Origin: Mercurialis annua | Lineage: Eukaryota > Streptophyta > Magnoliopsida > Malpighiales > Euphorbiaceae | Reading direction: 5' to 3' | DNA: 64,000 nucleotides | Assembly: GCF_937616625.2 (NCBI RefSeq) | Contig: NC_065574.1 | Coordinates: 2,852,001 to 2,916,000 of the forward strand | Part shown: positions 6,637 through 55,734 of the stretch, one piece after another | How positions within the stretch are numbered: position 1 is the first letter of the stretch | Layout: each line of letters opens with the position of its first letter | The notes under the pieces: generated by a model | What the model saw: only the letters and a program-made list of their open reading frames with translations | The model's database searches: none | Told to the model about the DNA's origin: nothing | Translations under genes and position numbers: made by a program

Positions 6637-7794
6637 TTAGTTGGACTGATCACTGGACATTACCGGGTTAACGGTGTAGTTTATAATGTGATTGTTACCG
6701 AACCTGTGAACCTGTGATATCATCCCTCCTAAAGTAAGTAAGCTGACACCGCTCAAAATATTAGACTTTCCGGGAGGCAGGGAGAATATTTTTAGAACCT
6801 CCGCAGATGCAATTTTGTAGACAAAGACTTTTCTTTGGTGCGACAAATAGAAGTGAAAGATACCATAAATAGTGAGATAAGGAATAAAGGATTGAAAAAA
6901 TAGCGGTTTGATTTTCAAACAATCTGCCAATGGGAGCACCATCTGTTTATCCCATTTGAGATTCTTATAATCCCTGAGCACCAACACATGAAAGTCACCT
7001 TTTTCGCCGTCTATATGACCAAATCCTAACTTATCATTCCATTGTAGAGTCCAAATTTTGGTCCAATTTGAAAACAAAGATTGCGGCAGAGCATTTCTAG
7101 TAAAAGTCTCGGTTTCTAAATCAAGAGAGATCATTTCTTTAGGCCCATTCTTGTCTACCCTTACAGAGTGAAGGGTGCCGATTGTTCTGACGACTGAAAT
7201 CGTCTCTTCGTCTGTGTTCATACAAGTAAACTGGGGGCGAAACCGTATAGTTCTCCACCAAAAGTCCCGCCCAAGAGTAAACACTTCACAGCCTGCATTC
7301 TCATCCTTGTCCTTGTATGCAGTTGCCAATTTATATTCATTAGTAGATGCAACATACAGAATATGCATATATAGGTGATCTTTATGACGCGGATCAGGTA
7401 GAATCATCCGGTGCTTCGTCACCGGGTTTTGTATCCAGTACTTGGACGTAACATTGCTTTTCGTAAGCAGCAAGCCATCTCGGGCACTCAGTAGTTTAAA
7501 AGTCTCGCCGTTGATAAACAATTCACCATTGTGAAATTGATGAACGGAGATATGATTCTCTAAAAAGAAGCGATCTTCGGTTAATAAATAACGCCAAGAC
7601 TTGCAAACACTTTTCATTCGCAGCAATGATTTGATTGGTAATCGGATCAGTATTTGGCTAATGATTTCTGGAGGAAGATTACGTTGCTTAATAGATTTGT
7701 TTCTGATCCATGAAGTTTTTGTTAATACAGTGCCAATAATCAGAGCCATACCAACCCCGCCAGCTATGCTCACAACATGCGGCCACTTCTCCAT
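6637..7794 (-). CDS. F-box protein with N-terminal membrane segment
   Basis: A single-exon 385-aa protein. Residues about 39-80 are a clear F-box (LPPEIISQILIRLPIKSLL, then VCKSW), which binds SKP1 in SCF ubiquitin ligases. Residues about 85-370 look like an F-box-associated interaction domain (GLLL, WIQNPVT and later beta-rich repeats), the usual substrate-binding half in this plant family. Residues 7-25 (VVSIAGGVGMALIIGTVL) form a hydrophobic segment followed by basic residues. That suggests a membrane-anchored F-box protein, unusual for the family. A start at a later Met would remove it, but no other Met precedes the F-box except M16 inside the segment. The substrate is unknown. Helitrons lie on both sides and a LINE remnant lies downstream. 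Confidence 0.85.
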   Translation of the reverse strand: MEKWPHVVSIAGGVGMALIIGTVLTKTSWIRNKSIKQRNLPPEIISQILIRLPIKSLLRMKSVCKSWRYLLTEDRFFLENHISVHQFHNGELFINGETFKLLSARDGLLLTKSNVTSKYWIQNPVTKHRMILPDPRHKDHLYMHILYVASTNEYKLATAYKDKDENAGCEVFTLGRDFWWRTIRFRPQFTCMNTDEETISVVRTIGTLHSVRVDKNGPKEMISLDLETETFTRNALPQSLFSNWTKIWTLQWNDKLGFGHIDGEKGDFHVLVLRDYKNLKWDKQMVLPLADCLKIKPLFFQSFIPYLTIYGIFHFYLSHQRKVFVYKIASAEVLKIFSLPPGKSNILSGVSLLTLGGMISQVHRFGNNHIINYTVNPVMSSDQSN

Positions 7795-7799
7795 GATGA

Positions 7800-8159
7800 T
7801 GATGATAATGGGTCGGGAAACTAAAACTTAATCTCACATTCATAGCAGCTCATTAATGGTTCTTTACTAACCCTATTTGAATTTTAGTAGGATAGGGTAA
7901 CTAAATTATTTATCCCTATAAAATTTATAGTAGGATTACAAAATATTATCTGAAACAACTAGTAACAGATTAACAAGTACTAAGATTTGAATTCTAACTA
8001 AACAAATTTAAATGAGATAATTCTAATAAAATTACCGCACAGAAAAAAGTAAAAAAGTATTAGAGGCTGTTTAGTTGCTGGAAGATATTCCTATTTTCTA
8101 GAAAATATCCTAAGATAATTAAATTCGCTGTTCACTTGACAACTGACATTGTTTCCAAA
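7800..8159. other. Upstream region of the F-box gene
   Basis: AT-rich DNA between the F-box start codon and the Helitron terminus at 8160. It would contain the F-box promoter; I see no unambiguous TATA box. Confidence 0.4.
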
Positions 8160-23600: not shown

Positions 23601-24432
23601 ACTACCATTAAAACAAAACTAAAACAATGAGCATAGCATTATACTTTCCGGTACTCAATTTTATGATTAAAAAAAATGCCAAAACGTTACTAACTTACAA
23701 AGAAATCCTCCAATTCGACTGATTCATCCTCTGATTAACATCTTTCAACTTCAATGGTTGCATCTCACTAACTTTCTGCGGCAACCAAGAACTCATCACG
23801 TTCTCCGAAATCTCCGCCCCAGTCACTTTACTATTCCCATTTCCAGTCTCAACATCCCTAAACTGCTTCAATGTTCCAACTTTTCCGCAGCTTCTACAAA
23901 AACCCCACCATTGTCCTTCTTCATTTCCGCAATCATTGCATACATAAATCGTTTTAATCTTCCCTTTCTTCCTATTAACAGGCCCAATTTCTACACTTTC
24001 ATTACCTAAATCAGCTCTCTTCACATTCACATTGTATCTCTTTTCGCTCGGAAATTTCTCATTTTCTTTACTATAACGCATCAACCCCATTCTGTTAACC
24101 TGTTTATTATTATTCTCATCACTACTATTTACACTCTCACTTGAAACCCTAATTTCAACATTTGATAAATCCGTTACCGATTCTTGCTCCTGCTCCTTGT
24201 GGTTGTCGTTGATCCCCTGCGTCAGCGGATTGAAATTACTCCAGACTTTAGGGGCATTTTGGGAATCGTTAGAAGTGGAGGAGTCGCCGGAGAAGAAACG
24301 GAGAGCGGTGGAGTGGAATAGGCGGGAACGGGAATGACAAGAAAAAGTGTTGTTAGGGTTTTGAATAGGGTTTAAGAGAAAGGTTTTGTGACTGTGGAGT
24401 AATTTTATGGATTTCATGTCTGTGATTTGCAT
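14605..24432 (-). CDS. RADA: RADA, organellar RecA-superfamily DNA branch-migration ATPase
   Basis: Fifteen coding exons join cleanly to 641 aa: 24432-23699, 23014-22959, 22135-22077, 21915-21844, 21422-21339, 21066-20959, 20615-20553, 19817-19737, 19422-19357, 18694-18539, 17600-17523, 17101-17063, 16193-16111, 15117-15045, 14778-14605. In order: a Ser/Asn-rich N-terminus with a basic start, fitting an organelle transit peptide; a C4 zinc finger (CNDC 165-168, CRSC 179-182); Walker [11 protein letters not shown]; a Walker B-like [10 protein letters not shown]; the RadA hallmark KNRFG; and a C-terminal Lon-like domain (EIGLGGELR). Bacterial RadA drives branch migration of recombination intermediates, and plant RADA is known to act in mitochondria and plastids. 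Every exon is in phase, so the gene looks intact. The intron after exon 13 has a GC donor (AG|GCAAGT). Introns are long and one holds a MITE (17721-18511). Confidence 0.93.
17721..18511. mobile_element. GC-ended MITE inside a RADA intron
   Basis: Two GC-rich arms of about 150-170 bp, rich in GGTTCCGG/CCGGAACC motifs, lie inverted around an AT-rich centre in the intron between exons 18694-18539 and 17600-17523. The ends read agctggccacgg and, inverted, agctggtcatgg. Removing it would leave an intron of about 150 bp. I see no convincing target duplication; the subterminal motif density suggests a hAT-like non-autonomous element. It starts 28 bp inside the splice donor. Confidence 0.6.
18962..18997. 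repeat. (GA)n / GATA microsatellite
   Basis: The plus strand reads agagatagatagagagagagagagag inside the RADA intron between exons 10 and 9; simple sequence only. Confidence 0.8.
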
Positions 24433-27420
24433 TAGATAGAGAGAGATTGTGAAATTTGTAATGGAAACCCTCGGATTTTGAAAAACATTGGGGATTTTTT
24501 CGAGATTAGGGTTTTGACTGTGAAATTATAAAATCGGCGCGAAGTTTAAACGAGCTGGTGGCTGACTGTTTGCTGTCCGTTTTGTTTTGGCTAAACGCAT
24601 CTTTGACTTATGAGTTAAATAGCCATTTACCCCCTCAACTTATCAATCTGCAATTTACCTATTCAATAGTCGATAATTTGTTTGAATAATTTGCCCATAA
24701 AATTAATTCGTATATTATTTTTCCATTATTTGCAAATCAATACTTAAGTCCGATAGTTATTATAAAGCTACTTTAAAAGTTATAATTTTTTAATAATTTG
24801 AACCCAAAACACGTTGGTACAGTGTTTTGGGTTCAACTGTGTACTATGATTATTTTATCATATTTATTCATAAAATATAATTTGAATATTTTGATCTGTT
24901 AATTTTATGAATCTGGACAAAAATAAGCAACCTCTAAGTCATACCTCTTTTTATAATTTTTTTTTATAAATTTGTATTTCATAAAAAAATATTTTACACA
25001 ATTTTAATTTAGTTTGGAAAAGTTTAATGGATATAAAATGAGAAATATATGTTCAAAAGTAGATTTAAAATGAGGGTTGAATATATTTATTCCATTTTAC
25101 AAAGTTGACGGATCGAAATGTTTTAAAAATATATATTATATTTTAGAAATATATTTGATAAAACAATTTAAAATTATAGACATAAAAAAGCATTTTACCT
25201 TAAAAAATACAATAACTAATTTTATCAAAACAAAATGCATGAACCTAAAATTAGTTATGCATAAGAAATGAAAAATATATTTTAGATCAAATAAATTATG
25301 ATACAAAATGAAAAGTAATTTATTAACCAAATGTGTCAAAATATGAACCATCAAATGCACCAACCAAACATCTAATAAAACTTAATTGAGATGACAAATT
25401 GCATTCGTAATGAATGTAGATGGTCATGTTTAACTGTTTTAGTTGGGGCACATTACTTTTACTTACAGGCATAAAATGGATTTAGTGATAAATTCAGGAA
25501 ACGCGTGTTCAATTCGGATCAAGTGACGATTAGTCAGAATATGAAAATTTAAAAATGACGTTTTGATAAAATCTCATGAACTTTAATAATTATATATAGA
25601 GTACAAAAAATAGTTTTACCAAAGTCGATTTTTATTTAATCAGCAATGATTTTTTTATTAGTCTAGTATTGAATTTATTTTAATAAATACATATTTTATA
25701 TTTATTGTTTTTTCTTTCACAACAATTATGTTTTCTTTTGTAAAAATGTTAGTATTAATTTTACTATGTTAATAGATATACTGGTGGAGTAAATATCTAA
25801 GTTATTAATAATTAATTTTTTTTTTGATGTTTTCTCATTTAATTCATTTTCAATCAAACTCATTCAAAGATAAATAGTCGATTTATATTTAAAATAATCA
25901 TGAAGCAGATGAATTATCGTTTTGCGCACTTAAAAATCTCTATCAACCCGGCTAAAAATATACATTTAAATATTTATTATTTAACTAAAGTTCTTCTTAT
26001 GTACTTATAGAATGTACTTTTTTTATATTTTTAATTATATTGTATTTTTATTTTTCAATTGATGAAATTTGTATTATTGTAAAAGAAGATCTAAGAATAG
26101 ATTCCCAAAAACATACTATTCATTGATTATTCAAATTTCAATGTTCAATCCTAAATTTATAAGAATTAATTATTTTAACTGAAATTTATAAGAATTATTT
26201 TTGTTTACAATTAACCAATTTGGGTTTATAGATTATAAATATCAATTTTATAAAGAACTATGTTGACATAACTAATGACTTTTTACTATGTAGCTCGTGA
26301 CGTGCTGCATTTTAAATGTACTAATAATTCAAAATTAGATAGTAAATGTGCATGCAAAAGTGAATAAAATTCATGTTCTAATTTTCTTTAGGTAGGCGAG
26401 CTTGACTAATACATGTGAATGAAAGTGTGGCCATTATTAATATAATCACTAAGATCTGATTCAAATTAAATTAATGAATTAAATTTAAAACATGAGACCT
26501 TAGTTCACATGTTGCTACTAGTTTATTTAATTTTAAGTGACTATTCACATTTTGGCTTTCTATTTGACTTTTTTTTTTAAATTAAAAAAAAGTCTCAACT
26601 CGAATTTAAAATTATTACGAGTCTTATTTAATCTTTTATTTCACTTGATTTAAAACTTAAATTATGTTCAATTCAGCAAAAATATTATAATATTCATCTA
26701 TAGCCGGTCTGATTCCGCTATATTTAATACATGAAGTTTTAAAATTACTTTTTTAGTGTATTTTGTCAATGAGCTATTTATTTCTACATGATTTGTTTTT
26801 GTAAATAAAGTAACTATAGAACCATTTAATATATATCCCCATCCATATTAGACCAGCAATACTGTTTAAATATTAAAACATTTTTAAATTCATGTTAGCT
26901 TTCGAACACGTGTCAACTTTTTACTAGTGAATTGGAATGAATTTCTTTTTTGACAGAAAATTGGAATAAAATGTCAATAAGAAAATCTATCAGTTGTGTA
27001 TAAACAATAAATATACTACTTATCATGTGTAGATAAATCATTTTAGAACATCATTTTTGCAATTAATAACAAAATAAAATATTTATAATTGTCAAAAAAA
27101 TAATACTAATTACTAACAGATGGGGCAACTCATTCCAGAACTGTAAATGCTGTCAGCTCAATATAGGTGGAAATTGGAGGGAAAATCAAACAAATTAAAA
27201 GTTATATTTATTATTTTTTAATTCCCTTTATTGCCTATATTTAACAAATTCCAAAAGCAAATCTTCTAATTATAAAACAAAATTTTGTCATTAATTATCT
27301 AAATTTAGATCAATAAAGATAAGATTCACTTATATAAATCAAACTTAATCTGTCTTAAAATTAAAAATCGTGGTTTAAAAACTTAGACACTCAAAACTAA
27401 TTAACTTCTTAATTTTTCTT
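24433..27420. other. Intergenic region between divergent RADA and CHUP1-like genes
   Basis: Three kilobases of AT-rich DNA that should hold both promoters. Apart from a perfect small hairpin at 24798-24836, I see no gene, RNA or bounded element. Confidence 0.5.
24798..24836. repeat. Perfect 15-bp-arm hairpin
   Basis: ttgaacccaaaacac (24798-24812) and its exact reverse complement gtgttttgggttcaa (24822-24836) flank a 9-base loop, about 370 bp upstream of the RADA start codon. Confidence 0.8.
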
Positions 27421-28348: not shown

Positions 28349-30681
28349 ATGGTGAAAGAAAAGATTGATATCAGGCCAGTTCTACTCAAATTTGGATTGG
28401 TTTTAGCTCTTTCATTTGCTGGATTTCTTTATTCTCGATCGAAAAACCGAAGAGTCAAATCTTCTAAGGCTCCTCGCCCCCTACGGCCTTCAGGTCTGTG
28501 CACATGTTTGGCTGATTTTCCGGTCAGTTCTGATCCGGGTTCATATTTGTGTCCTCATGTTTAATTGTTGTGTTTTTACAGGTCATGTTGTTGAGGATAA
28601 TGGAACAGCTGAAATGAAGAAAACGCCCAGTCCGAGGAGCAATCCGTTCATTTCTGTCGACAAACATGTAAGTTCATCTCATAATTTTGCTATACTTGCA
28701 GGAGTTGTTCTATAATTATGTTTAATGATTTTACTATGAGCTAATCTGATTAGTTATGTGGTATGACATGTTTCTGCTTTATGTCTGTTACACAAGAAAC
28801 AATATTATCTTACATGCTGATGTCTGTCACCAGAAATAGTGATGATTATGGAAATTAATCTGTATGAGAATTGGTAAACTTGGTTGAATTCCGCTTTCTG
28901 GATTTTACTTAAATGCATTTTTTTAACTCCGTCTAGCAGGAAGATGCATCCGCTCCGAAAGTTGCTGCTGATATGGTTGTACTTGCACCAAGCGGTAGGT
29001 ACAATGGAGATAAAGATGGGTACCTCTTGCCCGAATTTAATGACCTCGTAAATGAATTTGATGTAAATTCGACAAGTGCTGGGATATCTCCAAAAAAGGA
29101 TGTAGAATCACCAAGATCAGACACGGGAACTCCACGAGCTGCTAGGAACATGGAAAAGAATGATCACGATCAAGAGATTAGACATCTTAAGACCCTGGTT
29201 AGAATGCTTCGAGAAAGGGAAAAGAATCTAGAGTTCCAACTGCTCGAGTTTTATGGCCTTAAAGAGCAAGAAACTGCTATGATGGAGCTACAAAACCGTT
29301 TGAAAATAAGCAATATGGAAATTAAGCTTTTCACTCTCAAGATTGAGTCTCTGCAGGCAGATAATCAAAGACTGCAGGCACAAGTCACTGATCATGCAAA
29401 AATCGTTGCTGAGCTTGACGCTGCAAGATCGAAAATTAAACTGCTGAAGAAAAGGCTAAAGTCTGAAACTGAGCAGAATAAGGAACACATCATATCCCTT
29501 CGAAAAAGAGTTGGTCGGTTGCAAGAAGAAGAACACAAGGCTGCAACAAATGATTCTGATATTAAACTGAAGCTGCAAAAGTTGGGGGATTTGGAGGCTG
29601 AAACAGAAGACTTAAGGAAGTCTAATCTTAGACTGAACTCAGAAAACTCTGAATTGGCTCGTCAGTTAGATTCCGCCAAAATCCTTGCGAATTCTGTTCT
29701 TGAAGATCCAGAGGTAATCTTTTTGTTCATGACTTCATCTTTTTCTTTACATATGTTATCCTTCGACTTATATTTAGGTTCATCCTTCTTTGGCAGACAG
29801 AAGCACTAAGAGAACTTAACGACAAGTTGAAACATGAAAATGAGAACTTGACAAGGGATGTTGAGCAACTCCGAGCAGACCGATGTAATGATTGCGAGGA
29901 ATTAGTCTATCTTAGATGGATAAATGCATGCTTGAGATTTGAATTGCGCAATTTTCAGCCTGCACATGGTAAAACAGTAGCCAGAGATTTAAGCAAATCT
30001 CTCAGTCCCAAGTCGGAGGAAATAGCAAAGCAGCTAATACTCGAATATGCAAATACCGAAGAGACGGGGGCTAATGGTATTAACATTATGGATTTTGAGT
30101 CCGACCAGTGGTCATCCTCACATTCGTCCGACGTGATAGACTCAGGCGACTTTGATGATTCTGCAGGCTCACCGAAAACCAGCACCTCCAGAAAAATCAA
30201 CTTCTTCAACAAGCTAAGAAAACTAATTCGGGGAAAAGACATTCATCATCATCAGAACCACGGATCAGTTGACAAATCTGTCGAAGCAGAAGACTCCGAT
30301 TCTCCGTATGGAAGTTCAAGTATATCAACAACAACTGATGCTGCAAGTGATCGTCATTTGAACAGACTACATAGCGTATCTCTGGATTTATCTAGACGGT
30401 CTGCATACATCAAGAATCCGAAAATGGATGAAATGAAGGAAATGGGAATTGGTCGACGAAATAGTGACGTTGGGCCGAAAAGGTTTTTGTCAGGCAGGTA
30501 TACTACTCGTCATTTGTCACCGGAAAATCAACCCGAGCAAGGCTCGTTCTCGACGGAGCGATCAGAATTATTGAAATTTGCAGAAGTTCTGAAGGACTCA
30601 GACAGTATAACAAGAGCATCTCATAAAAAATCAGCATCAGTTGGTTCATTTGGGAGTTTTCATCGAACAACTTCACACTAG
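28349..30681 (+). CDS. CHUP1/AR791-like coiled-coil membrane protein
   Basis: Four coding exons (28349-28493, 28582-28667, 28940-29713, 29797-30681) join in phase to 629 aa. Residues about 10-25 are a single hydrophobic anchor (LLKFGLVLALSFAGFLYSR) followed by basic residues. A long coiled coil runs from about residue 155 to 360. The family signature YLRWINACLRFELRN follows, then the segment KSLSPKSEEIAKQLILEYA shared with CHUP1. CHUP1 anchors chloroplasts to actin at the outer envelope. This protein lacks the proline-rich and large C-terminal domains of CHUP1 and instead resembles the shorter actin-binding AR791-type paralogues. I used the ATG at 28349; an earlier in-frame TTG is not a plant start. 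The end of exon 3 and all of exon 4 have a diverged duplicate at 35.1-35.7 kb fused to the NLR. Confidence 0.88.
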
Positions 30682-31690
30682 TTTATGTATACTCTCATAA
30701 GCCTATAGTAAAACAGTAAAGTAATCACTGTAAATGCATCATACACCTTACGAATTAACTTAACAAAGATTAGGAATCGGTCATTAAAAATATTTTTGCT
30801 GCCACCTTTGTCTGTTATACAAGAAATATAATGTTTGTACACTTGAGAATGAGATTAGTGACTAAATGGTAATGTCATGTTCAATTCCAATTAGAATTTT
30901 TCCAATTGAACTCCAATTTTTTCTCAAAAATGTAGAGTCTCTTTGGTTCAAATGAATTTTATAATTTTTATGAAATTCAATTGAATCTCTACAAAATATG
31001 TGTTTAGTTCAAATGAATTTTCACAATTTAAATTTACATTTATACTCTAAAAATAAAATATTCAATTTATTACATTTCATTTAAAATTAATTTCATATTT
31101 AAAATTTGGAATATTAAATACACAAATTTATTTAGAAATGAAATGATTTTTACACTATGATTGAACTAAACCTTAATTTTATTAGGAAACATTGCATTGT
31201 ATACGAATTTTTTATTAAAAACATTTTGTTTTAATGACAAAAAGATTTATTTAACTTATTTTTTGGTTGTAAAAGTTCATTTTAAAAAAATCAACCGAAA
31301 ATCTTCCACAAAATTACTAGTTATCTACCGAAATCATATTTCTATATAAAAAAAGTGAAAAAATAGCGTATTTTTCTAAAAAAGATAAATCGAGCGTATT
31401 TTTGCAAACAGTCTGATGAAAATAGCCCTTTTTATAAGAAGCCCAATCTTTCATACACACGGGATCTATATATCACATGTGCTCGATAATTAACAGATAT
31501 TGTTAATCTTATATTAAGAATTTAATAGGTGGGATCAATTATTAAGGGAATATTTGCATCTAGAAAATCAATAAGGTCCTTTTTGATATACTATGGAAAC
31601 ATTAAGGACATATTTATATCTTTCTCCAACACTTAATAGGTGTTCTATTAAATGATTAAATTAGTTCCTGACAAAAAAAAAAAAAAAAAC
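30682..31690. other. AT-rich spacer, no gene seen
   Basis: 3' flank of the CHUP1-like gene followed by AT-rich DNA ending in a long A-run at about 31671-31690. No repeat boundary was identified. Confidence 0.5.
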
Positions 31691-31722
31691 AATGGCGGGA
31701 GAAGACGAGAAAAAAATGTCTT

Positions 31723-31873
31723 ATGATCGGAGAGGAGGTGGCAAAGAAAGAACTGACCACCGGAGAAGCGGTCGGAATGAAACCGTTAGAGAACAAAATC
31801 GACGGCTGGAAATCGGCGGCGATCGCGTATTCCGTCTCCGTTTATCCTCAGCTACTGATTGTCGTCGCTATAG
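31723..31873 (+). pseudogene. Exon-like fragment of unknown gene
   Basis: A GC-richer 150-bp stretch opens with ATG, reads MIGEEVAKKELTTGEAV... and ends with a hydrophobic stretch (YPQLLIVVAIG) exactly at a good donor (ATAG|gtaag). No following exon is recognisable before the NLR start at 32230. Another frame is also open, so the coding frame is not certain. I do not recognise the protein. It could be the first exon of a lost gene or a captured gene piece. Confidence 0.3.
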
Positions 31874-32229
31874 GTAAGAATTTAAAATGAATACAGTAGT
31901 TTAATAACCTAATTTGAAATGCAATAAAGTACATTATCTCTAATAATGATAACCTAATTTGAAAAATTAGTTATAATTTTATTCAATTTATGCATAATTG
32001 ATTCATTTACAATTAGTTTAATAAACTTCTTTGGATTCCTTCGTCCGTTCCATTAAAAAAATACAATTAGTTTAATAAATTTATATGTAGGTCCAGCTCA
32101 TAGGCATTCATTTCAGTTGACTAACGTGCATATTTAACAATTATTTAAAATTTCAAATCTCAAATGCTATGCCCATTCCGAAAATTGAATTATATTTTCT
32201 TCAATTCTATAGTTTACCATTCTTTCAAA

Positions 32230-35200
32230 ATGGCTGATGCTCTGATTTCCTTTGTGATAGAGCAAGTGGGCTCAATCATTATCCGTGAGGTGGAGCAAGA
32301 AGTGAAGCTTGTTGTTGGTGTGAAGAAAGAACTCGAAAAGCTCAAGAGCAATCTCATGGCGATCCGTGGTGTTCTTGCTGATGCAGAAGAAAGGCAGCTC
32401 AAGGAAATCGCTGTCAAACAGTGGTTAGACAAGCTCAATGCGGTTTCCTACGACATGGATGATGTGCTCGACGAGTGGAGCACCGCGATTTTTAAATCGC
32501 AAGTTGAAGGAGAAGATCATAATTCTGCATCGAATCCTAATAGTAAGAGAAATGTACTCTCCCTTATTAAATCGTCTTGCTTTTGTTTTAAGGAAGTCGG
32601 CCTCCGTCATGACATTGCTCATAGAATTAAGGAATTGAATGAAACTTTGAATGATATTAAAGTTCAAAAAGATATGTTTGGGTTTGATATTGGAAAGGGC
32701 ACCACCAAAAAATCTGAAACCCTAATAACCACCTCTCTTATCAATATAACAGAGGTGCAGAGTAGAGAGCAGGAAAAAAACCAGATCGTTAACTTGTTAT
32801 TGAGTGAGAGTAGTCAAAGTGCTTCACTAGACATTGTCGCTATGGTGGGGATGGGAGGAATTGGGAAGACGACTCTTGCCCAGTTAGCTTTCAACCATCA
32901 TCAAGTGATATCTTGTTTTAATGTGAGAATGTGGGTGTGTGTTTCACGCCCATTTGATTCACTGAGGATTTCCAAGGCAATCCTTGAATCTCTTTTTGGG
33001 GACGCCCATAGATTTGGTGAACTTGAAACTGTGGTCAACCGAATTGAACAAACTATTAGGGGAAAGAAATTTTTGCTTGTATTGGATGATATGTGGGATG
33101 ATGGTCCTGAGAAGTGGATGCAACTAAAACATTGTTTGCTAGGTGGCTTACCAGGAAGTAAAATTCTGGTGACTACACGTAGTGAGAGTGTTGCAAGGAA
33201 CATGGGATGCGCAAGAAACGGCCTAATTCAACTAGGAAAATTACCTCTACAAGAATGCTGGTCCATATTTAGCCAGATTGCATTCTTTGACAGAGATACT
33301 GAAGAGCGTGAACAACTAGAAATTATTGGCAAGGAAATAGTTGAGAAGTGTGATGGTTTGCCTCTTGCTGCGAAGGCTCTAGGAAGTCTTTTGCGTTTGA
33401 AAAGTTCAGCACAGGATTGGAGGGATGTGTTGAATAGTAAGCTATGGGAAATACCAGGGATATGGGAAGCTAATAGTGGCTTGGCCTCCTTATGGTTGAG
33501 CTACTATGATTTGCCTTTAGAATTGAGGCATTGTTTCTCATATTGTGCTATCTTTCCTAAGAGTTACAAGATAGATAAAAATAACTTAATTGATATGTGG
33601 ATGGCTCAAGGTTATCTCGGAGCAACTTCAACCAAAAAGAACGCAAAGAGATGTGGGGAAGAGAACTTTCAAGATTTAATTAGACGTTGTTTCTTTCAAG
33701 ATTTGGAAAAAAATGGGTTTGGAGTAAACAAGTGCAGAATGCATGACATATTGCATGATTTTTCCATGTACCTTACAAAGAATGAGCTTTTTAGCATGGA
33801 AGTTGAGAATTCTGACGAGAAAATAGAGCAGTCTCTATCTAGAGAAGCACGGCACTTGAGGATAGTGCTTGGGAAAGAAAGTTCATTTCCAAGCTCTATC
33901 TCCACAATGAAAAATCTGCGAACGCTTTGGATTCAGTCTCATGGTACAAAGCATATTGGTGCAACTCTATCTAATGTGTTTGACAAGTGCATTGGTTTGA
34001 GATCATTGATCCTGCGGAGTTGCGACGTTTCAGAGATCCCATCCTCCATAAACAATTTAATACACTTGAGGCAGCTTGACTTGTCTAGTAATCATAGATT
34101 GAGAAGGTTGCCTGAAAATGTATGTGAATTATACAATCTGCAAACACTGGATGTTGGTGACTGTAAATTTGTGAAATTGCCCGAGAGAGTAGAAAATTTA
34201 GTCAACTTGAGGCAATTATACAACTTCGGCACGAAATTTTTGCCGAAGGCAGTTGGGAGATTAACTAATCTGACAACTTTGACAGAGTTCATAATCAGTA
34301 ATGATACTGAAACTGCATGTTCTCTCAGAGATCTCAACAACTTGAACCAGCTTCAGGGAGAGCTTGTTATAAGAGGATTGGGCAATGTGAGAAGTGTGAG
34401 TGAAGCTAAGGAAGCCCAACTCATAAAAAAGACTCAAATTATTGGTTTAGATTTATTTTTTAATGGAGAGGAAACAGAATGCAGAGAAAAAATGGATGAA
34501 GAAATAATAGAAGCCATAAAGCCTTGTCCAAATGTGGAAAAATTACGTATAGTCGACTACAGAGGAACCACACTAGTCCCCAGTTGGTTGTTTTTACTGA
34601 ATAATCTGAGGGAATTGTCTTTGAAATGCAGTAACTATGAGCATTTGCCTCCTCTGTGGAAATTGCCATCCCTTGAGTCACTTTGTCTGGATGAGATGAC
34701 AGGTATTAAAAGATTGGGTTCCGACTTTGTTGGAATTTCAGCAGCCGATCATGTTCGGAGTCAGATTTCTTCATCCACATATGCAAATGTTGCTTTCCGC
34801 AAGTTGAGTCATCTGAGTTTTTATTGGATATGGAATTGGGAAGATTGGGAAAGTGCGGAGATGAGCAATTTGGATGTTGATATCACAGTAATGCCCTGTC
34901 TTCGCAATTTGACGGTAATGTACTGCCCAGAGTTAAAGGCTTTACCAGATTACCTTCTCCGTTTGAAAACATTAGAAGAAGTTAAGATCCATGAGTGCCC
35001 TATTATCCATGAAGATTACAAACAGCAGAAGTATAGTGCTGAAAAGTGGCAAAATCCTAACATCCGCATAAGCTGCTTGTCCGTCTCCAATGCGGAACGT
35101 AACACATTCCTTGCAAACGCTGTTCTTGAAGATCCAGGGGTAAATTTCTTGTTTATGAAAGTTACATGTCCACTTTATGTGTATGTTTGTTATCCTTGCA

Positions 35201-35722
35201 CCTAAATTTTAGGTTCCTCTTTTGTTTTTGTTTTTCTGGTTGCAGACAGGAGCACCAAGAGAACTCGACAACAAGTTCAAACATAAAAATGACGAATTGG
35301 CCAAGGAAGTTGAGCGACTCCAAGCAGATAGATATACCGAGGCTGAAGAATTAAAGTATTTACGATGGATAAATGCATGCTTGCGGCATGAATTACGTAA
35401 TGTACAGCTACCACCGGTCGTCAAAGGTGGAAGCGAATCCATGAGTCCTCAGTCTAAGGAGAAAGCAAAGCAGCTAATTCTTGAATATGCCGATGGTGAA
35501 GTTATGAATAACTCTGACTGGGATGATTCTGATGGTTCGTCTACAAACAGCAACCCCACCAAAATGAACGCTTGGTCAACAAACAGAAACCCCAACAGAG
35601 AGAAATTTTTGGGCAAGCTCAAGAGACTTGTTGAGAAAAAAGATATGGATCATCATAATGATGTACCATCAGGGAGCAAATCTGAAGCAGCAGAGGATTC
35701 TGATTCTCCACGTGGCGTTTAA
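32230..35722 (+). CDS. CC-NBS-LRR immune receptor, fused in frame to CHUP1-like exon
   Basis: Exon 1 (32230-35139, 970 codons) starts MADALISFV, a typical CNL start; an upstream in-frame ATG at 32164 adds an untypical 22 residues. Order: coiled-coil (1-150, with an EDVID-like DMDDVLDEW at about 74-82), P-loop GMGGIGKTT (207-215), kinase-2 LLVLDDMW (about 282-289), GSKILVTTR, GLPLAAKAL (about 375), CFSYCAIFPK, MHD (about 504), then leucine-rich repeats (about 560-950). All nucleotide-binding motifs are intact. The frame has no stop after the LRR. It continues through ILANSVLEDP-like sequence (FLANAVLEDPG) copied from the CHUP1-like gene, to a donor GGG|gtaaat at 35140. Splicing to the acceptor before 35246 gives exon 2 (35246-35722), in phase, ending at TAA: 1128 aa in total. 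If unspliced, the frame stops at 35205. Recognition target unknown. Confidence 0.85.
35246..35722 (+). other. Duplicated CHUP1-like terminal exon (C-terminal domain of the NLR fusion)
   Basis: Encodes TGAPRELDNKFKHKNDELAK..., KYLRWINACLRHELRN and SPQSKEKAKQLILEYADGE, collinear with the parent's exon 4 (TEALRELNDKLKHENENLTR..., YLRWINACLRFELRN, SPKSEEIAKQLILEYANTE). It ends 158 codons in, near DSDSPRGV, so the parent's last ~120 residues are missing. The preceding intron is also homologous to the parental one, so this is a genomic duplication rather than a retrocopy. The frame is fully open, which argues for constraint or a recent origin. Confidence 0.85.
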
Positions 35723-35864
35723 ACCTGAGTATAAACAGAAGATTCAAGGTAACAAAACTTGACCAAAGCAAATGGTTATGCTTTTTTGTTTTTGCTTTCA
35801 GGTCTATAAACACTGCTCTATACTAAATTATATTTAAGAACCTGACAATCATTCTTTTTCAGGC

Positions 35865-36075
35865 AAATGTCTCAGTCCCGAGTCTGAGGAGAAAGCAAAT
35901 GCCGACATTGAAGAGATGGAAGATTCTGATGATTCACCAACAAACAAACAGCAGCAACGCCACCAAAAATATTCCGGCAAGCTAAGGAGATTCTGATTCT
36001 GAAGCTGTAGATGATTCATATTCTGATTCTCCATGTGGAAGTTAAATCCGAGTATTAACAGAAGATTCAAGGATT
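35865..36075 (+). repeat. Second, shortened copy of the CHUP1-like 3' segment
   Basis: Starts after an acceptor-like ctttttcag and reads KCLSPESEEKANAD..., EDSDDSPTNK, GKLRRF and stop. It then continues with DNA matching the 3' end and UTR of the copy just upstream (tctgattctccatgtgg, acagaagattcaagg occur in both). It is an internally deleted tandem duplicate and could serve as an alternative last exon, but only with a truncated product. Confidence 0.75.
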
Positions 36076-39675
<3,600 letters not shown>

Positions 39676-40132: not shown

Positions 40133-42919
40133 TCAGATGAGTGAAAATCCCTGAAAAAGAAGGCTCTCTGCAATAATATGATTAACAGCTTCTGATGGAT
40201 GAGTACCATCCCAAAACACATACTGTGATGCATTGCTGCAAGTTCCTGCATACTTTGGATTGCACAACAATGGCTTTGTAGCTACATGCGTCGTTCCCGT
40301 CATACAACACCCTCGTCTTGCTTCCACAAACCCTGCACCAAATATCATTGGAACTGTTAATTTTGTTTTCAATCTTCAAAACTTAAATTTAGTGTATTAG
40401 TTACCATGATGTAAAGGGGATTTGACAAGGTCATGGATTGAAGTGAAAATGTCAAAAACAGCAATTTTAAGACCAGGAAGTTGTTTCTTGAGAGCTGCAG
40501 AAGTTGAGTTTATCTTCTTGTTGAAGTTGAGGGCATCGTTGTTGATCCTTGAGACGCATCCGATCTCATTTGAACCGAATAAATCCCGAGCTGCAGGAGT
40601 ACAACCAATTGGAAGGAGTGCAGAAACCCCTAGTCTCCTTGCTCCCAATGCATATAAACCCTGTTTCAAACAAAGAAAGCTATACACATGAGAAATGCCC
40701 TCACAGCCTTGAAAATATACGGAAAAGGAAATACCGAAATTTAAAATGTTTAAAGTTAGTTTTAGAGTTCAGAAGCGTTTCTAAAAATGAAAATGACATC
40801 CAACAACGTAGGCTCGATAAATTTTCGTGCAATGTAGCAGTTTAGGGTAATTGATTCAGAGTACTGTCTTATCGCAGTTTAAAGTCCGAACTTTGATTCG
40901 TTTACTAAATTTTAATTTCCTTTCAACGGGAGGTTTTTCGATAAAAGATGCATATATGGCAGCTAGTTTTTATTAATTTTAGTCTGAAAACTCGCTAAAT
41001 ATGCATACATTTACTTACCCTAAAAACTTTCCGCTGAAATGAAATTATACATATATGATAAGTCTTCAAACAAAAATAAGTAAAAAGCGATGGACTCATG
41101 GCAAAAATAAGCAAAAGCGATGCCGCATATACATTTTGACCAAAAAAACTCACATTCAAACAAAATTAAATTTTGATAATCAAATTGAAACAAATCAAAC
41201 TTTGATCACGAAATTATAAAATGCTGATACTTTGAGTACTCCCGGAATCAATTATCCTAGCTGTTCAGTTGAGCCTACTATGTTATGCACAGGGCTAACA
41301 CAGATTTTTTTTTAAAAACAAGTATTATTATTACCTTAACAAATCTTGAGAATCCTCTGATAAGGAATGAAATATACTGATCAGGAGTATAAGCTTTGTT
41401 TAACCGGCCGTTAACGTAATAGTTCACAAGCAAATCTGCAGTGCCTGAACTTAGCAGGCATAATCCTTCCTTGATTATGAATGCAGATCTGTTGGCACCA
41501 GCTACCTTGGCTAGCTTACTCTGGTATTCTTTGAAGTATTGCAACTGTTGAGGCAATGTAAGAGCATTCTGAAAATACAAGCATCGATCTTGTTAAGGAT
41601 TTGGATCCATGTACTTCTATATAATCATGGCAAAAGGTTAGTGTCATATAATCAAGGAAGGATTATGCTAGGACTAGGAGTAATTAATAATATTAGTGTC
41701 ATATAATCAAGGCATAACGCACATTTGGATCCATGTACTTCTATTTATCAACATCGAGTCTTGATATTTTTAGTTTTATATACACTGGATCGCTCCGTAA
41801 TAGAAAGTGATAACAATGCCAATTCAGATCGAAAAAAACCAAATGTCAATAAAAATAGAAGTTAAGTAACTAAATTTTAATCAAAATTAAAGTATAAAAA
41901 CGAATAAAAATCTTATTCTAGTCGCACTAACAATGCGTAAATGTATGCATTGGCAAAGGAATCTAATGTGTAAAAAATTAAAAGTGCAGGGATTCAATGT
42001 TGACAAATAGAAATACATGGATCTAATGCCACTAATTAATTCAGTCAATAGTTTGATATGTTAGATGAAGCCCCATAAGTTCAAGATATTTCATGGCGAC
42101 AGAACAAAATAATACTACAACAGAACAAAATAATCAATAAGTTCAAGATATGTAATAATCAAGTCAATGAGATCTAACTCAAGTGGTTAATCCTCACGTA
42201 TATTTTTAAGGTCTCGATTTTGAGTCTGAATAGAGCCAGTTTAAGCCAATTAAAATCTGAAAATCTAGCTAATGACTGCTAACTACTGACGTAACTAGAT
42301 TCTACATCTGTCAAGAAAAAAGTAATAAAGTAATAATCAAATTATCAATAAGTTCAAGATATCAAATAATCAATAATGTTAGATGAAGCCCCATAAGTTC
42401 AAGATATCAGGCGAGACTCCGACAATAATATTACGACAGGACAAGAATATCCCTACGCTTCGAACGGCGGCTTTATCATCATAACCAGATCCAGCCGATG
42501 CAAAGCTAGCTCCATGAAGCAGATTCTTTCCTGAAGCAGCCGGGCTAAGATACGGCGGTATATAGCTCTTAAACCCTAAAGTATCAGCTGTTATGCATAA
42601 AGCAGAAAATATAAGATGAGGATACCGTGAGTGTCAAGTAATCATTGAGTAATTTGAAGGTAAAATATATACCTGCAATGTCAGAGACTAATTTTCCATT
42701 GCAAAATCTTCCAGTAGGTTTATGATTGGCGAAATCTCTCCCATAGGGAAGATAATTAGCCTTGAAAATAGTGGGGAGATAATTATTGTTGCCAATATCC
42801 ATGGCTGAGTCCCCAAATGTAAATAAAGCTGGAAAAATGAGGTCTTGTGCATTTTTGCCATCTAGAAATGAAAAAACTAAGGCTAAAATTAAGATTATTG
42901 CTCTAGAAAACATGCCCAT
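40133..42919 (-). CDS. GDSL esterase/lipase (copy 1)
   Basis: Five coding exons (42919-42673, 42587-42457, 41568-41335, 40660-40405, 40332-40133) join in phase to 355 aa, the usual length for plant SGNH hydrolases. Residues about 1-24 form a signal peptide, so the product is secreted. Block I is FTFGDSAMD (catalytic Ser about 38), block II contains [10 protein letters not shown], and block V is WDGTHPSE with the catalytic Asp and His. The position usually occupied by block III Asn reads LSSGTADLL: Ala replaces the Asn of the GxND motif (copy 2 has Ser). The substrate is unknown; family members act on cutin, waxes, acylated sugars or lipids. Exon phases match copy 2, so the two are duplicates. 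Intron 2 carries a SINE and repeated segments. Confidence 0.9.
42163..42329 (+). mobile_element. SINE in GDSL copy-1 intron
   Basis: A tRNA-like head (ctaactcaagtggttaatcc, then a B-box-like ggtctcgattttgag) and an A-rich end lie between direct repeats gtaataatcaa at 42152-42162 and 42330-42340. The longer phrase tgttagatgaagccccataa also occurs on both sides (about 42059 and 42378), so a local duplication is superimposed. Confidence 0.5.
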
Positions 42920-42982
42920 TTTTGGTGAGTCAAAAATGGTGTGAGATAGATATTGTTTCTTCAGACACCTTTTTCAAAGGAA

Positions 42983-51208: not shown

Positions 51209-54200
51209 TCAAGCTGGATTGTATATGTCATGTACATTCAGCTTGGATAGAATCTCTAAGAAAGTAGATGGAGGTAAAGCTTTAGTGAAAAAATCTGCCA
51301 GTTGATGTCTTCCAGAAATGGGAAATAAATGAAGCAATCCAGATTGAATTTTTTCCCTCACTATGTGACAATCTATATCTATATGTTTGGTACGTTCATG
51401 AAAGCAGGGATTGTGTGCAATATGACATGCAGACTGGTTGTCACAATAGACTTTAGCAGGAGATATATCAATCTGTAAGTCTTTTAGCAGAAATGTGATC
51501 CATTGTATCTCACAGGTTGTATTTGCTAAAGCTCTATATTATGCTTCTGAGCTTGACTTAGAAACAGTTACTTGCTTCTTTGTCTTCCATGAGATAAGAG
51601 CTTCTCCAAGGAAAATACAAAAACCAGATATAGACCTTCTGGTTTCTGTGCATGTAGCCCAGTCAGAATCAGTAAAGGCTTTTAATTGCAGATTATTATT
51701 TGCTGGAAAGAACAACCCTTGTCCTGGAGCTTTCTTAAGATATCTTAGAATCCTTGAAATGGCAGCATAATGTGTCTTTGTTGGACAATCCAGGAATTGA
51801 GAAAGTTGTTGAACAGGAAAAGAAATGTCTGGTCTTGTACTACAGAGGTAAATCAGTTTGCCTACTAACCTCCTGTATTCAGTTATATCTGTATGAGGTG
51901 GAGTCTGATCTTCTTTTATCAACCTTGTATGTACTGTCATTGGTGTACTGTTAGGTTTACATCCAATGTACCCTGTTTCTTTAAGAAGATCAGTAACATA
52001 CTTTCTTTGACTTAAGTTTATCCCTGCTTTTGACCTTGCTACCTCAAGCCCCAAGAAAAACTTCAATGAACCAAGGTCTTTAATCTTAAAAACCTTATCC
52101 AAGTAATCTTTGATTTTCTGAATTTCCTCTGAATCATTGCCTGTCAGTATGACATCATCAACATATACTAGCAATGCAGTAAATGAACCACCATTTTTCT
52201 TTGTGAATAATGAAGAATCAGAAACTGCTTGTATGTAACCTTGAGAAAGCAATGCATCTGCTAACTTGACATTCCATTGCCTACTTGCCTGTTTCAAACC
52301 ATAAAGTGACTTAGTAAGTTTACAAACTTGATTTGAATTGGAACAAGACAAACCTGATGGTACTTGCATATAGACTTCTTCAGTTAGATCTCCATGCAAA
52401 AATGCATTGTTGATATCTAGCTGTTGTAATGTCCAATTCTTTGCTGCAGCAGTTGCTAATAACACCCTTATTGTTGTCATTTTGGCCACTGGGGAAAATG
52501 TATCTGTATAGTCAATACTATTTTGTTGTGTATATCCCTTAGCTACTAACCTAGCCTTATACCTCTCAACTGTACCATTACTATTATATTTAACCTTAAA
52601 TACCCATTTACATCCTATTGGTGTTTTTCCTTTAGGTAAATCAGTAAGATACCAAGTCTTATTAACTTCTAAAGCCTGTAACTCCTTTTTTATAGCTTCC
52701 TGCCAACATGTTTGTTGAATAGCTTCTTTATAAGTTTTAGGTTCTAAAATTGTATTTACATTTACTGCAAATACTTTATGTGCAGAATTTAACCTATCAT
52801 AAGTAAGTACTTTTGAAAGAACATGAGGAGTAGTTTTCTTTTCACAACCTGAAACAACATGTATCTTGGGAATATCACAAACAAAATCCTTTAAATGTGA
52901 AGGTTCAACTATTGTTCTTGAGGATCTCCTAAGTGAAACAGAAGGTAACTGCCTATGAATAACATTTTGATTTTCTTCTCTAGCTTGATCAACAATATGA
53001 TTATCTGTATCTAAATGCTGATCATCTACTAAGCTATGTTGAGGAATATAAAAATCTGTGCTAGGAACATCAATGTATGCAGGTAAAACCCCTAATGAAT
53101 TATCCACATTTTTCTCAGAATTAACATTATTCAAATCTTTGTATGGAAATAAATGCTCATAAAATCTAACATTTCTAGATATGAACACTACTTTTGATTT
53201 TATATCATATAATCTATAACCTTTTACAGTAGCAGAATATCCCAAGAAAATACACTGTGTGGCTCTTGGAGAAAACTTATGTCTAATATGACTCAAAGTT
53301 GATGCATATGCCATACACCCAAAAACTTTTAAATCATTAAACAAAGGCTGCTTCTTATGTAATATTTCATATGGTGTTTTATTATCAATAACAGGTGATG
53401 GAATTCTGTTAATTAGATAAGTAGCATGAGAAACACAATCAGACCAAAAACAAAGTGGAATTGATGACTGAAACTTTAATGCACGTGCAACATTCAAAAT
53501 ATGTTGGTGCTTTCTTTCCACTACAGAATTTTGTTCTGGTGTATATATGCAGGAAGTTTGATGCACTATACCTTTGGAATCATAAAATGTAGACATGTTA
53601 AATTCCTGGCCATTATCTGATCTAAAACACTTAATCTTAGTATTAAATTGTGTTTCAACATAAGTACAGAAATTTTGTATTAAAATTCTAACTTCTGACT
53701 TTGCTTTTAAAAGAAAAAGCCAAGTATACCTATTTTTATCATCAACTAAAGTCAGAAAATACCTATGACCATATATAGAAACTGTCCTAGCAGGTCCCCA
53801 AATATCAGCATGCACAAGATCAAAACAAGATTCAGAAATAGAAGTACTTAATGGAAAAGAATTTTTCTTTTGCTTTGCTAAATGACAAATGTTACAATGT
53901 TCATTAACAGGAATACTAATAGAAGAATCTATCAATTGTAAAGACTTCAACCTTACATTTGCTAAATGACCAAATCTATTGTGCCACAAAAAATCACTTT
54001 GAACAGAATTCACAAAACATTTAGACATATCAATCTTATTTGAAAATCTGGATTTATCAAGATGATAAAGGCCTTGATTTTTCCTAGCTAATCCAATCAT
54101 CTTCCAAGCAATAGGATCCTGTATAATACACAAATTTTTATGAAGAATTATACAATAATCATAATCTGTGGTTAGTTTACTTGTTGAGATCAGATTAAAA

Positions 54201-55734
54201 TAAAAATTAGGAACATATAATACATTATGCAAAGTAAAATCTTTACTAAATTCTACTGTGCCTATGTGTGTAACTTTAATTTTCTGTGAATTTGGCAAAG
54301 TCACAAACATATTTTCAACAGGTTTAGAGAATGTCAAAAACTGCAAATCACAAACAATATGATCCGTGGCTCCAGAATCAATTATCCATGATGCATATGA
54401 TGTTTGTGTAACAAAAGAAGAAGCTAAGAAATGCATACCAGACTCTTCTGTTGCAGAAGAGAAATTTGCAGAAACTGTATTCACTTTTGGTGTATTAACC
54501 ATAGCAGAAGTTTGCATAGCAGAAGCATTCTATTGTAGCATACTCATAAGCTGCTGATATTGCTGTTGAGTAAATACAGGTACATTCTCCTTTGACTCAG
54601 ATAAAACTTGATTGTTGTTAAAACTTCTCCCAATCCTTTCATTCTCAGACATAATTTCTTCATAATAACCATTGTTATCACAACCTTGATCATTATAGTA
54701 CAGCTCTTGCTCATTCCCAATTATAGAATCTCCAACTTGATTAACAAAACTCTGTGTCCTAACTCTTGGTTTATAACCAGGAGGATACCCATGTTTCTTG
54801 AAACATATATCCACTGTGTGTCCAGAAAAACCACAATGACTACAAACTGGTTTATCATTGTTATTAGTAAAGAACCTTCTCTGTCCTTGTGTTCTAGCAC
54901 CATTGTTATTGAAACTATTGTTATTGAAACCATTATTAGCACTATTAATAGGAGGTCTATTAATAAAAGATCTATTATTATTGAAAGAATTTCTTCCCTG
55001 ATAAGAAACATTACCCTGAGCTGCAAAAACTACTAGTTCAATATTCTGTAAAACAGTTTCATTAACTCCAATTCCCAATTGTAAACGAAAAAACCCTATT
55101 AATCTTTGGCAGAGGATCCATCATTAATACCTGAGTTCTAACAGTAGCATAATTTTCATTCAAACCTTTCAAGAACCTAATAACATAGTCTCCTTCATGT
55201 TGATTTCTAACAGTCTTTAATGCTTCACAATTACATTGTGGATTACATGTACAAACAGGAACCATCCTCAAATTAGAATACTCATCCCACAATATCTTGA
55301 GTTGAGTAAAGAAATCAGTAACAGAAAGAGTACCTTGCTTAAAAACATAAATTTCCTCTTGAAGATCAGAAATTCGAAGAGCATTACCCTGAGAAAACCT
55401 GTCAAACAAATCTTTCCAGACTTCCAAAGCACTGTCAATCCACATAATACTTTGTGCTATTGATGGAGATAAAGATCTTTGAATCCAAGATAAAACCATT
55501 GTATTACATCTTTCCCAAATTGAAAAAATAGCATCATCCTTTGATGGAATCGGTATTGAACCATCAACAAACTTCAGTTTGTTCTTAGATAATAAGCACA
55601 TTCTCATTGATCTTGACCAAGAATGAAAATTTTCCCATTTAATAATGGAGAAACCAGAACCAATGAAGGGTTTTCACTGGGATGTAAGTAAAAAGGACTT
55701 GAAGGATTATCAAATTCAGAAGGAATAAAAGCCA
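51209..55734 (-). pseudogene. Copia gag-pol polyprotein gene, four disabling changes
   Basis: Gag starts MAFIPSEF at 55734 and contains a zinc knuckle (CSHCGFSGHTVDIC). Then come protease IIDSGATDH, the integrase HHCC region (HCNICHLAKQ) and catalytic D-D-E region (HADIWGP, RSDNGQEF, VVERKH), reverse transcriptase YVDD, and RNase H (TDSDW). Breaks: a frameshift at about 55634-55637; a second in the A-run at 55088-55093 (plus strand); an in-frame TAG at 54530-54532 between gag and protease; and a TAA at 51539-51541, where family members have a Glu in the RNase H motif SEAEYRAL. Reading then resumes in frame to the true end at 51209. The enzyme set copies genomic RNA to DNA and integrates it; this copy cannot do so alone. 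Confidence 0.9.

Follow-up and report, generated by a model that had tools for sequence, protein, structure and literature searches.

Does a disease-resistance gene of Mercurialis annua (Euphorbiaceae) really end in a piece of a CHUP1-like protein and, if so, is that piece a working part of the receptor or mere baggage? The question arises at positions 32230-35722 of a 64,000-nucleotide stretch of contig NC_065574.1 (2,852,001 to 2,916,000, forward strand; hereafter the window). A first-pass annotation, made from the letters alone, had proposed that a coiled-coil nucleotide-binding leucine-rich repeat (LRR) receptor gene is spliced in frame here to a duplicated exon of a neighbouring CHUP1-like gene. 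We confirmed this feature at the level of the gene model, in which splicing between 35139 and 35246 is predicted. The best reading, in our view about an even bet, is that the locus encodes a lineage-restricted coiled-coil receptor (CNL, a subclass of NLR) carrying an integrated CHUP1-like helical segment and working as an NLR with integrated domain (NLR-ID).

From the ATG at 32230 the frame is free of stops until a TAA at 35203-35205, inside a predicted intron, bearing out the claim that no stop follows the LRR. The first exon (32230-35139, + strand, 970 codons beginning MADAL) encodes the coiled-coil, NB-ARC and LRR parts and stays open past the LRR end. Its last 37 nucleotides (35103-35139) duplicate the final part of exon 3 of the CHUP1-like gene (LANAVLEDPG vs. 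LANSVLEDPE), in agreement with the proposed entry, near 35100, into the last ~36 bases of that exon. The predicted GT...AG intron (35140-35245) has the donor CCAGGG/GTAAAT (35139/35140) and, behind a pyrimidine-rich stretch, the acceptor TTGCAG/ACAGG (35245/35246). Coding exon 2 (35246-35722, +) encodes the CHUP1-like tail, 158 residues with homology to codons 1-172 of neighbour exon 4, which has 294, and closes with a TAA at 35720-35722. The corresponding junction of the neighbour, 29713/29797, is likewise in phase 0; donor, intron, acceptor and exon 4 have thus been retained in phase, as claimed, and joining the two exons gives exactly the 1128 residues plus stop that had been predicted.

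The same join is found in an NCBI protein from M. annua (P0001, 1168 residues, annotated as 'putative disease resistance protein RGA3'), every residue of which is encoded by 31723-31873, 32261-35139 and 35246-35722. An independent annotation has therefore connected the NLR to the tail at 35139/35246, and the gene model supports the C-terminal integrated-domain architecture. On this model a fused transcript would be expressed. It is very improbable that the fusion is an illusion of annotation, the NLR and the CHUP1-like fragment being separate, with intron retention ending the receptor at 35205 (991 residues) and leaving the fragment untranslated. A retained intron would indeed meet the in-frame stop at 35203-35205, and the NLR is complete even without the tail, but the junction is a canonical GT-AG pair behind a pyrimidine-rich stretch and P0001 splices it. 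The N-terminus of P0001 is another matter: its own exon 1 (31723-31873, +) is spliced to 32261, skipping MADALISFV. The upstream exon (31723-32260 region) encodes a hydrophobic stretch without a Pfam match, and is either part of a real alternative transcript or an error of the model. We prefer the start at 32230, since the consensus of 12 aligned NLRs (P0001 and 11 homologues) begins MADALVS.

The receptor half looks like an ordinary RGA3-like CNL and appears intact. Pfam matches above cut-off were obtained for Rx_N (PF18052, E 4.5e-21; P0001 residues 49-136, of which the part from 32261 on lies at 32261-32517), NB-ARC (PF00931, E 1.6e-51; residues 220-442, 32767-33435), the winged helix and the LRR region (residues 624-938, 33979-34923; R13L1/DRL21-type repeats, PF23598, E 9.2e-31 and PF25019, E 1.6e-36), all on the + strand. 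GMGGIGKTT and GLPLA lie inside NB-ARC. Inspection of the translation by eye found GMGGIGKTT, LLVLDDMW, CDGLPLA and RMHD intact, which we take to be the P-loop, kinase-2, GLPL and MHD motifs, respectively, the last of them in the winged-helix part that follows NB-ARC. The closest relatives among the matches listed are RGA3-like CNLs from Manihot (P0114), Hevea (P0115) and Populus (P0116), with 46-49% identity over 97-99% of the queried region.

Where such receptors normally end was read by aligning P0001 with the 36 matches that come next in a list of 120; residues were counted from the alignment column that holds its residue 956, 32 residues before the end of NPNIRI. Half of the homologues (18/36) end 30-39 residues beyond this column, 7 end sooner, 6 at 40-60 residues and 5 later still. 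P0001 continues after NPNIRI with SCLSVSNAERN and then the CHUP1-like part, and a CHUP1-like motif occurs in none of the 36. As 18 of the 36 stop within a few residues of NIRI, the tail is an addition behind a complete LRR. Paired helper NLRs adjoining an NLR-ID are common, but not obligatory; only one NLR was recognised by eye among the 19 frames of at least 120 codons in the window, a survey that short exons could escape.

The CHUP1-like neighbour, which we take to be of the AR791 type, is a full gene for a 629-residue protein (P0004, also a database entry from M. annua) at 28349-30681 (+), with exons at 28349-28493, 28582-28667, 28940-29713 and 29797-30681, as read against P0004. By blastn, 35108-35490 matches 29682-30050 at 70% identity over 392 columns (E 1e-48), intron included. 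The two intron copies (the neighbour's at 29714-29796) share 64 of 83 aligned bases with five gaps, and their alignment score of 42.5 was reached neither by 2000 block-shuffles (maximum 35.5) nor by 2265 control stretches ending in AG (maximum 24.5). That the copy bears an intron supports the proposed genomic, rather than retro, origin. Some individual gaps between the two nucleotide sequences have lengths not divisible by three, but where the aligned exon begins and where it ends the frame agrees with that of the neighbour, in spite of several length differences. Donor and acceptor are likewise retained.

Three parts of the neighbour protein are missing from the tail: the hydrophobic segment at the N-terminus, almost everything encoded by exon 3 and ~120 residues at the C-terminus. 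What it does match in CHUP1 and CHUP1-like proteins is the end of exon 3, the YLRWINACLR block and the part of exon 4 that follows. Because only the exon 3 end and ~172 of 294 exon 4 codons are covered, the tail is best described, from sequence comparison, as a segment of a CHUP1-like protein and not as a member of the family. The first-pass annotation had called it an actin/chloroplast-positioning-type domain: the homology to CHUP1-like proteins holds, but the case for a role in positioning is weak given that the N-terminal segment, almost all of exon 3 and the last ~120 residues are gone. Neither P0004 nor the tail has a Pfam family match above cut-off, matches to NCBIfam, which is built for bacteria, stayed far under its cut-offs, and a comparison of P0004 with solved structures returned nothing meaningful (best E 0.039). 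Judged by titles and opening lines of abstracts, literature searches under the names AR791 and AT1G52080 found no functional paper on this short CHUP1-like subgroup.

Where did the tail come from? The neighbour ends 4.5 kb upstream and the homology is colinear across an intron, which makes a tandem or local duplication of this gene the natural, and probably the true, source. The earlier proposal of this neighbour as donor thus fares well on position and colinearity, but not as a recent copy. In a 36-row alignment the tail is 49% identical to P0004, 54% to a Jatropha protein and 50-51% to Populus proteins, and it shares only 1 of the neighbour's 13 private residues (the private residues of the other 34 rows recur in it at 8/234, so there is no clear excess), although a K-x-KH stretch read by eye in the alignment is apparently common to tail and neighbour. 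In a 25-row tree the end branch is 1.22 for the tail and 0.31 for the neighbour; the free tree puts the tail, with poor support, beside Turnera and Salicaceae, a position made unsure by its long branch. Forcing tail and neighbour into one clade gave an approximately unbiased test p-value (p-AU) of 0.056, above the 0.05 rejection level. A recent duplication of the neighbour was set aside on the private residues (1/13 vs. 8/234) and because the two were not joined in the free tree. An old duplication is supported, short of proof, and by position and colinearity it was probably local; the NLR was probably joined to a truncated CHUP1-like copy early in the Mercurialis annua lineage.

A second copy at 35858-36072 (+), incomplete and decayed, takes in part of the tail exon and some sequence past its stop; it has stops in all three frames, and 53 nucleotides comprising the tail's stop and what lies beyond it recur there at 87% identity. 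As the tail and the decayed copy have this stop in common, truncation came first and the internal duplication next; only the upstream copy is open. This bears on the idea that a second CHUP1-like gene, complete and functional, existed here until recently, with the tail as its 3′ part, and that the NLR has lately taken the place of its 5′ part, in which case the open frame would reflect past selection on the paralogue and not on the fusion. The long separation of tail and neighbour (1/13 private residues; apart in the free tree) is what an old tandem paralogue would show. We nevertheless consider this history improbable, since the end branch of the tail is about four times that of the neighbour, unlike a maintained paralogue, the shared stop dates truncation to before the internal duplication, and the interval 30682-32229 showed no significant trace of a second CHUP1-like gene (its best blastn match spanned 18 nucleotides, E 0.01). 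In a tblastn search with P0004 over 30682-36672, the matches were the join, the tail and the decayed copy, plus one at chance level (E 6.6). Just past the tail stop there is a possible donor (GT, 35749-35750) and, before the decayed copy, a possible acceptor (AG, 35861-35862); this part of 35749-36072 is perhaps a spliced 3′ untranslated region.

Is the tail kept as protein? The first-pass annotation had suggested a comparison of dN/dS (omega) between the tail exon and its parental exon. Over 88 well-aligned core codons, omega on the tail branch was 0.50 (bootstrap 0.24-1.0, with 2.5% of replicates at or above 1), compared to 0.23 on the neighbour branch, the assignment to branches assuming an even split of synonymous changes. 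These values replace a pairwise tail/neighbour omega of 0.525 (0.33-0.82), which mixes the constrained neighbour branch with that of the tail. The tail retains 20 of the 26 residues that are invariant in the 34 other CHUP1-like rows, and YLRWINACLR is unchanged. In simulations of neutral drift, the probability of meeting no stop in 148 codons was 0.053, 0.021 and 0.010 at 0.15, 0.2 and 0.3 changes per site, respectively, where 0.15 is about half the intron distance and 0.3 half the synonymous distance. Retention of the residues under drift at 0.3 had P 0.012 (0.005 with near-invariant columns included). The evidence for upkeep of the tail as protein is moderate, and maintenance as coding sequence seems likelier than its absence.

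AlphaFold2, run with 36 aligned rows, confidently predicts a long helix over tail residues 3-52 (35252-35401, +; block mean pLDDT, the per-residue confidence score, 83-97 over residues 1-50), within which YLRWINACLR falls (35357-35386). Further helices are predicted at 68-89 and 116-134, along with low-confidence stretches; the model as a whole has a mean pLDDT of 68 and a predicted template-modelling score (pTM) of 0.30. A comparison of the tail model with solved structures gave one match (E 2.3) and nothing meaningful. Pairing by helix with a CHUP1-like partner, or inside the receptor oligomer, would be the likeliest physical property of the segment.

How widespread is the fusion? Residues 955-1128 were searched against 5.8 billion proteins, yielding 113 matches from 637 candidates (~620-1974 residues), by a method that depends on common 5-residue words and similar length, so that much shorter or highly diverged fusions would escape. 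NLR domains were found in P0001 only, the other named matches being mostly labelled CHUP1 or actin-binding; the search for further NLRs with a C-terminal CHUP1-like segment thus came back empty. Similarly, a CHUP1-like motif and an NLR P-loop pattern occur together only in P0001 among 297 proteins compared. Literature searches that paired CHUP1 with either NLR integrated domains or 'NB-LRR fusion' found no paper, and we know of no earlier NLR-ID built from a CHUP1-family protein. The class to which the gene model belongs is known; its type of domain is new to us.

In several respects this is a familiar kind of NLR-ID: a canonical NLR and a piece of a host protein in one frame, with introns in the integrated part and an intact donor gene. 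C-terminal CNL fusions are among those described in PMC4759884, PMC12787737 and PMC5819176. Integrated domains mostly retain introns and their donors remain intact, according to the last of these (Bailey et al., PMC5819176), which proposes duplication plus transposition or ectopic recombination and allows either the NLR or the domain to move. The Mercurialis fusion differs in that the piece has no Pfam model and represents only the middle of its source protein, in being a single case rather than a clade of fusions, and in having a related full gene immediately adjacent, whereas the donors in the wheat cases described are elsewhere in the genome. Singletons are the rule among integrated domains: PMC12787737 reports 1226, of which 678 occur in a single NLR.

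What might such a receptor do? The 3′ end of a CNL gene would have been joined to a truncated CHUP1-like copy, most likely a tandem copy of the adjoining gene, and the predicted 35139/35246 splicing would add ~12 + 158 residues, a ~50-residue helix with YLRWINACLR followed by mostly low-confidence sequence. This helical segment could serve as bait, mimicking a CHUP1-family protein that is bound by pathogen effectors, or it could pair by helix with the CHUP1-like protein itself, as a tether or guard. Binding or disturbance at the segment would then free the NB-ARC switch by way of the LRR end. That the target should be of the CHUP1 family is reasonable, because the powdery-mildew effector EqBPIE1 is reported to bind HbCHUP1 in Hevea, also of the Euphorbiaceae (commentary on He et al. 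2026, PMC13360270), and focal immunity against P. infestans depends in part on CHUP1 (PMC12481158). A role as bait is plausible, and fast evolution of the tail is what an effector interface would show. Binding, expression and signalling by the fusion are all presumed here, and the fuller proposal, that a CHUP1-family helical segment has served this CNL as integrated sensor, whether bait or tether, from an early point in the Mercurialis lineage, is less likely than not.

A number of observations weigh against an NLR-ID that works through its tail. When all 168 aligned codons are counted, the tail-branch omega rises to 0.68 (0.43-1.05), and 6 of the 26 invariant residues are gone. Codon positions 1+2 (38/176) and 3 (28/88) show no significant difference (Fisher p 0.097), the end branch of 1.22 vs. 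0.31 marks the tail as fast-evolving, and drift at the intron-based distance of ~0.15 is rejected neither by the open frame (P 0.053) nor by the residue retention (P 0.38; 0.52 with near-invariant columns). By our estimate a chance in-frame join is not rare (~1 in 6). Conservation of the fusion cannot be shown, P0001 being the sole NLR with the tail among the 113 matches. As to function, NLR-triggered cell death was unimpaired without CHUP1 in N. benthamiana (as reported in PMC12481158), and the literature searches found no role for the short CHUP1-like donor subgroup.

A different explanation is that the NLR landed ahead of a degenerating CHUP1-like copy and lost its stop while the old splice junction stayed usable; the tail would then be mere carry-over, an extension on a functional receptor that is not selected or seldom spliced in. 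This is a real possibility, if short of an even chance: the tail's branch is long, CHUP1-like fragments do decay here, as the partial copy at 35858-36072 already has, drift at 0.15 is not rejected and singleton integrated domains are frequent (the 678 of PMC12787737). It sits poorly with a frame that agrees with that of the neighbour where the exon starts and where it ends, length differences notwithstanding, with two retained splice sites, with the 97.5% of bootstrap replicates in which core omega is below 1, and with the probability of 0.01 for an absence of stops at the synonymous-site distance. The integrated helical segment remains our best reading of the tail.

The surroundings of the gene offer a glimpse of its history. 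Downstream lies a poly(A)-binding-protein-like (RRM) gene (36672-39115, +, ends approximate), recognised by RRM_1 in one exon and by tblastn with the C-terminal parts of two Centaurea proteins, P0080 and P0065. These two (2 of the 113 tail matches) are CHUP1-like protein models that run into RRM domains, probably through annotation read-through; the C-terminal part of each has its match here in the RRM gene, at 36.7-38.7 kb. Such a pairing suggests an old adjacency of the CHUP1-like and poly(A)-binding-protein genes, with the NLR a later arrival between them. A similar adjacency probably exists in Arabidopsis. Insertion of an NLR between neighbours fits the account of a mobile NLR or integrated domain in Bailey et al. 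(PMC5819176). No tandem repeats were found in 30600-36700, and no tRNAs or Rfam families across the window. Elsewhere in the window are an F-box protein frame (6637-7827, - strand, 396 codons), a frame with a rubredoxin-like zinc ribbon (23695-24525, -), presumably as at the start of RadA-like proteins, GDSL lipase/esterase-like exons (40397-42973, -; Pfam match in one of two pieces scanned) and a Copia-type retrotransposon (51539-55673, -) whose gag domains lie in a different frame from its long pol reading frame, the latter carrying RVT_2 and gag_pre-integrase domains.

With singletons so common among integrated domains, the Mercurialis fusion is one more ordinary case until expression or selection is shown, and it is these two properties of the tail that decide between sensor and baggage. 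The locus also points to a blind spot. The two integrated-domain surveys whose methods were consulted (PMC4759884 and PMC12787737) rely on Pfam, and since neither the neighbour nor the tail has a Pfam match above cut-off, such surveys would overlook fusions of this kind. If the tail is expressed, a CHUP1-family protein would be a probable effector target in this plant, with a full gene of the family adjoining the fusion.

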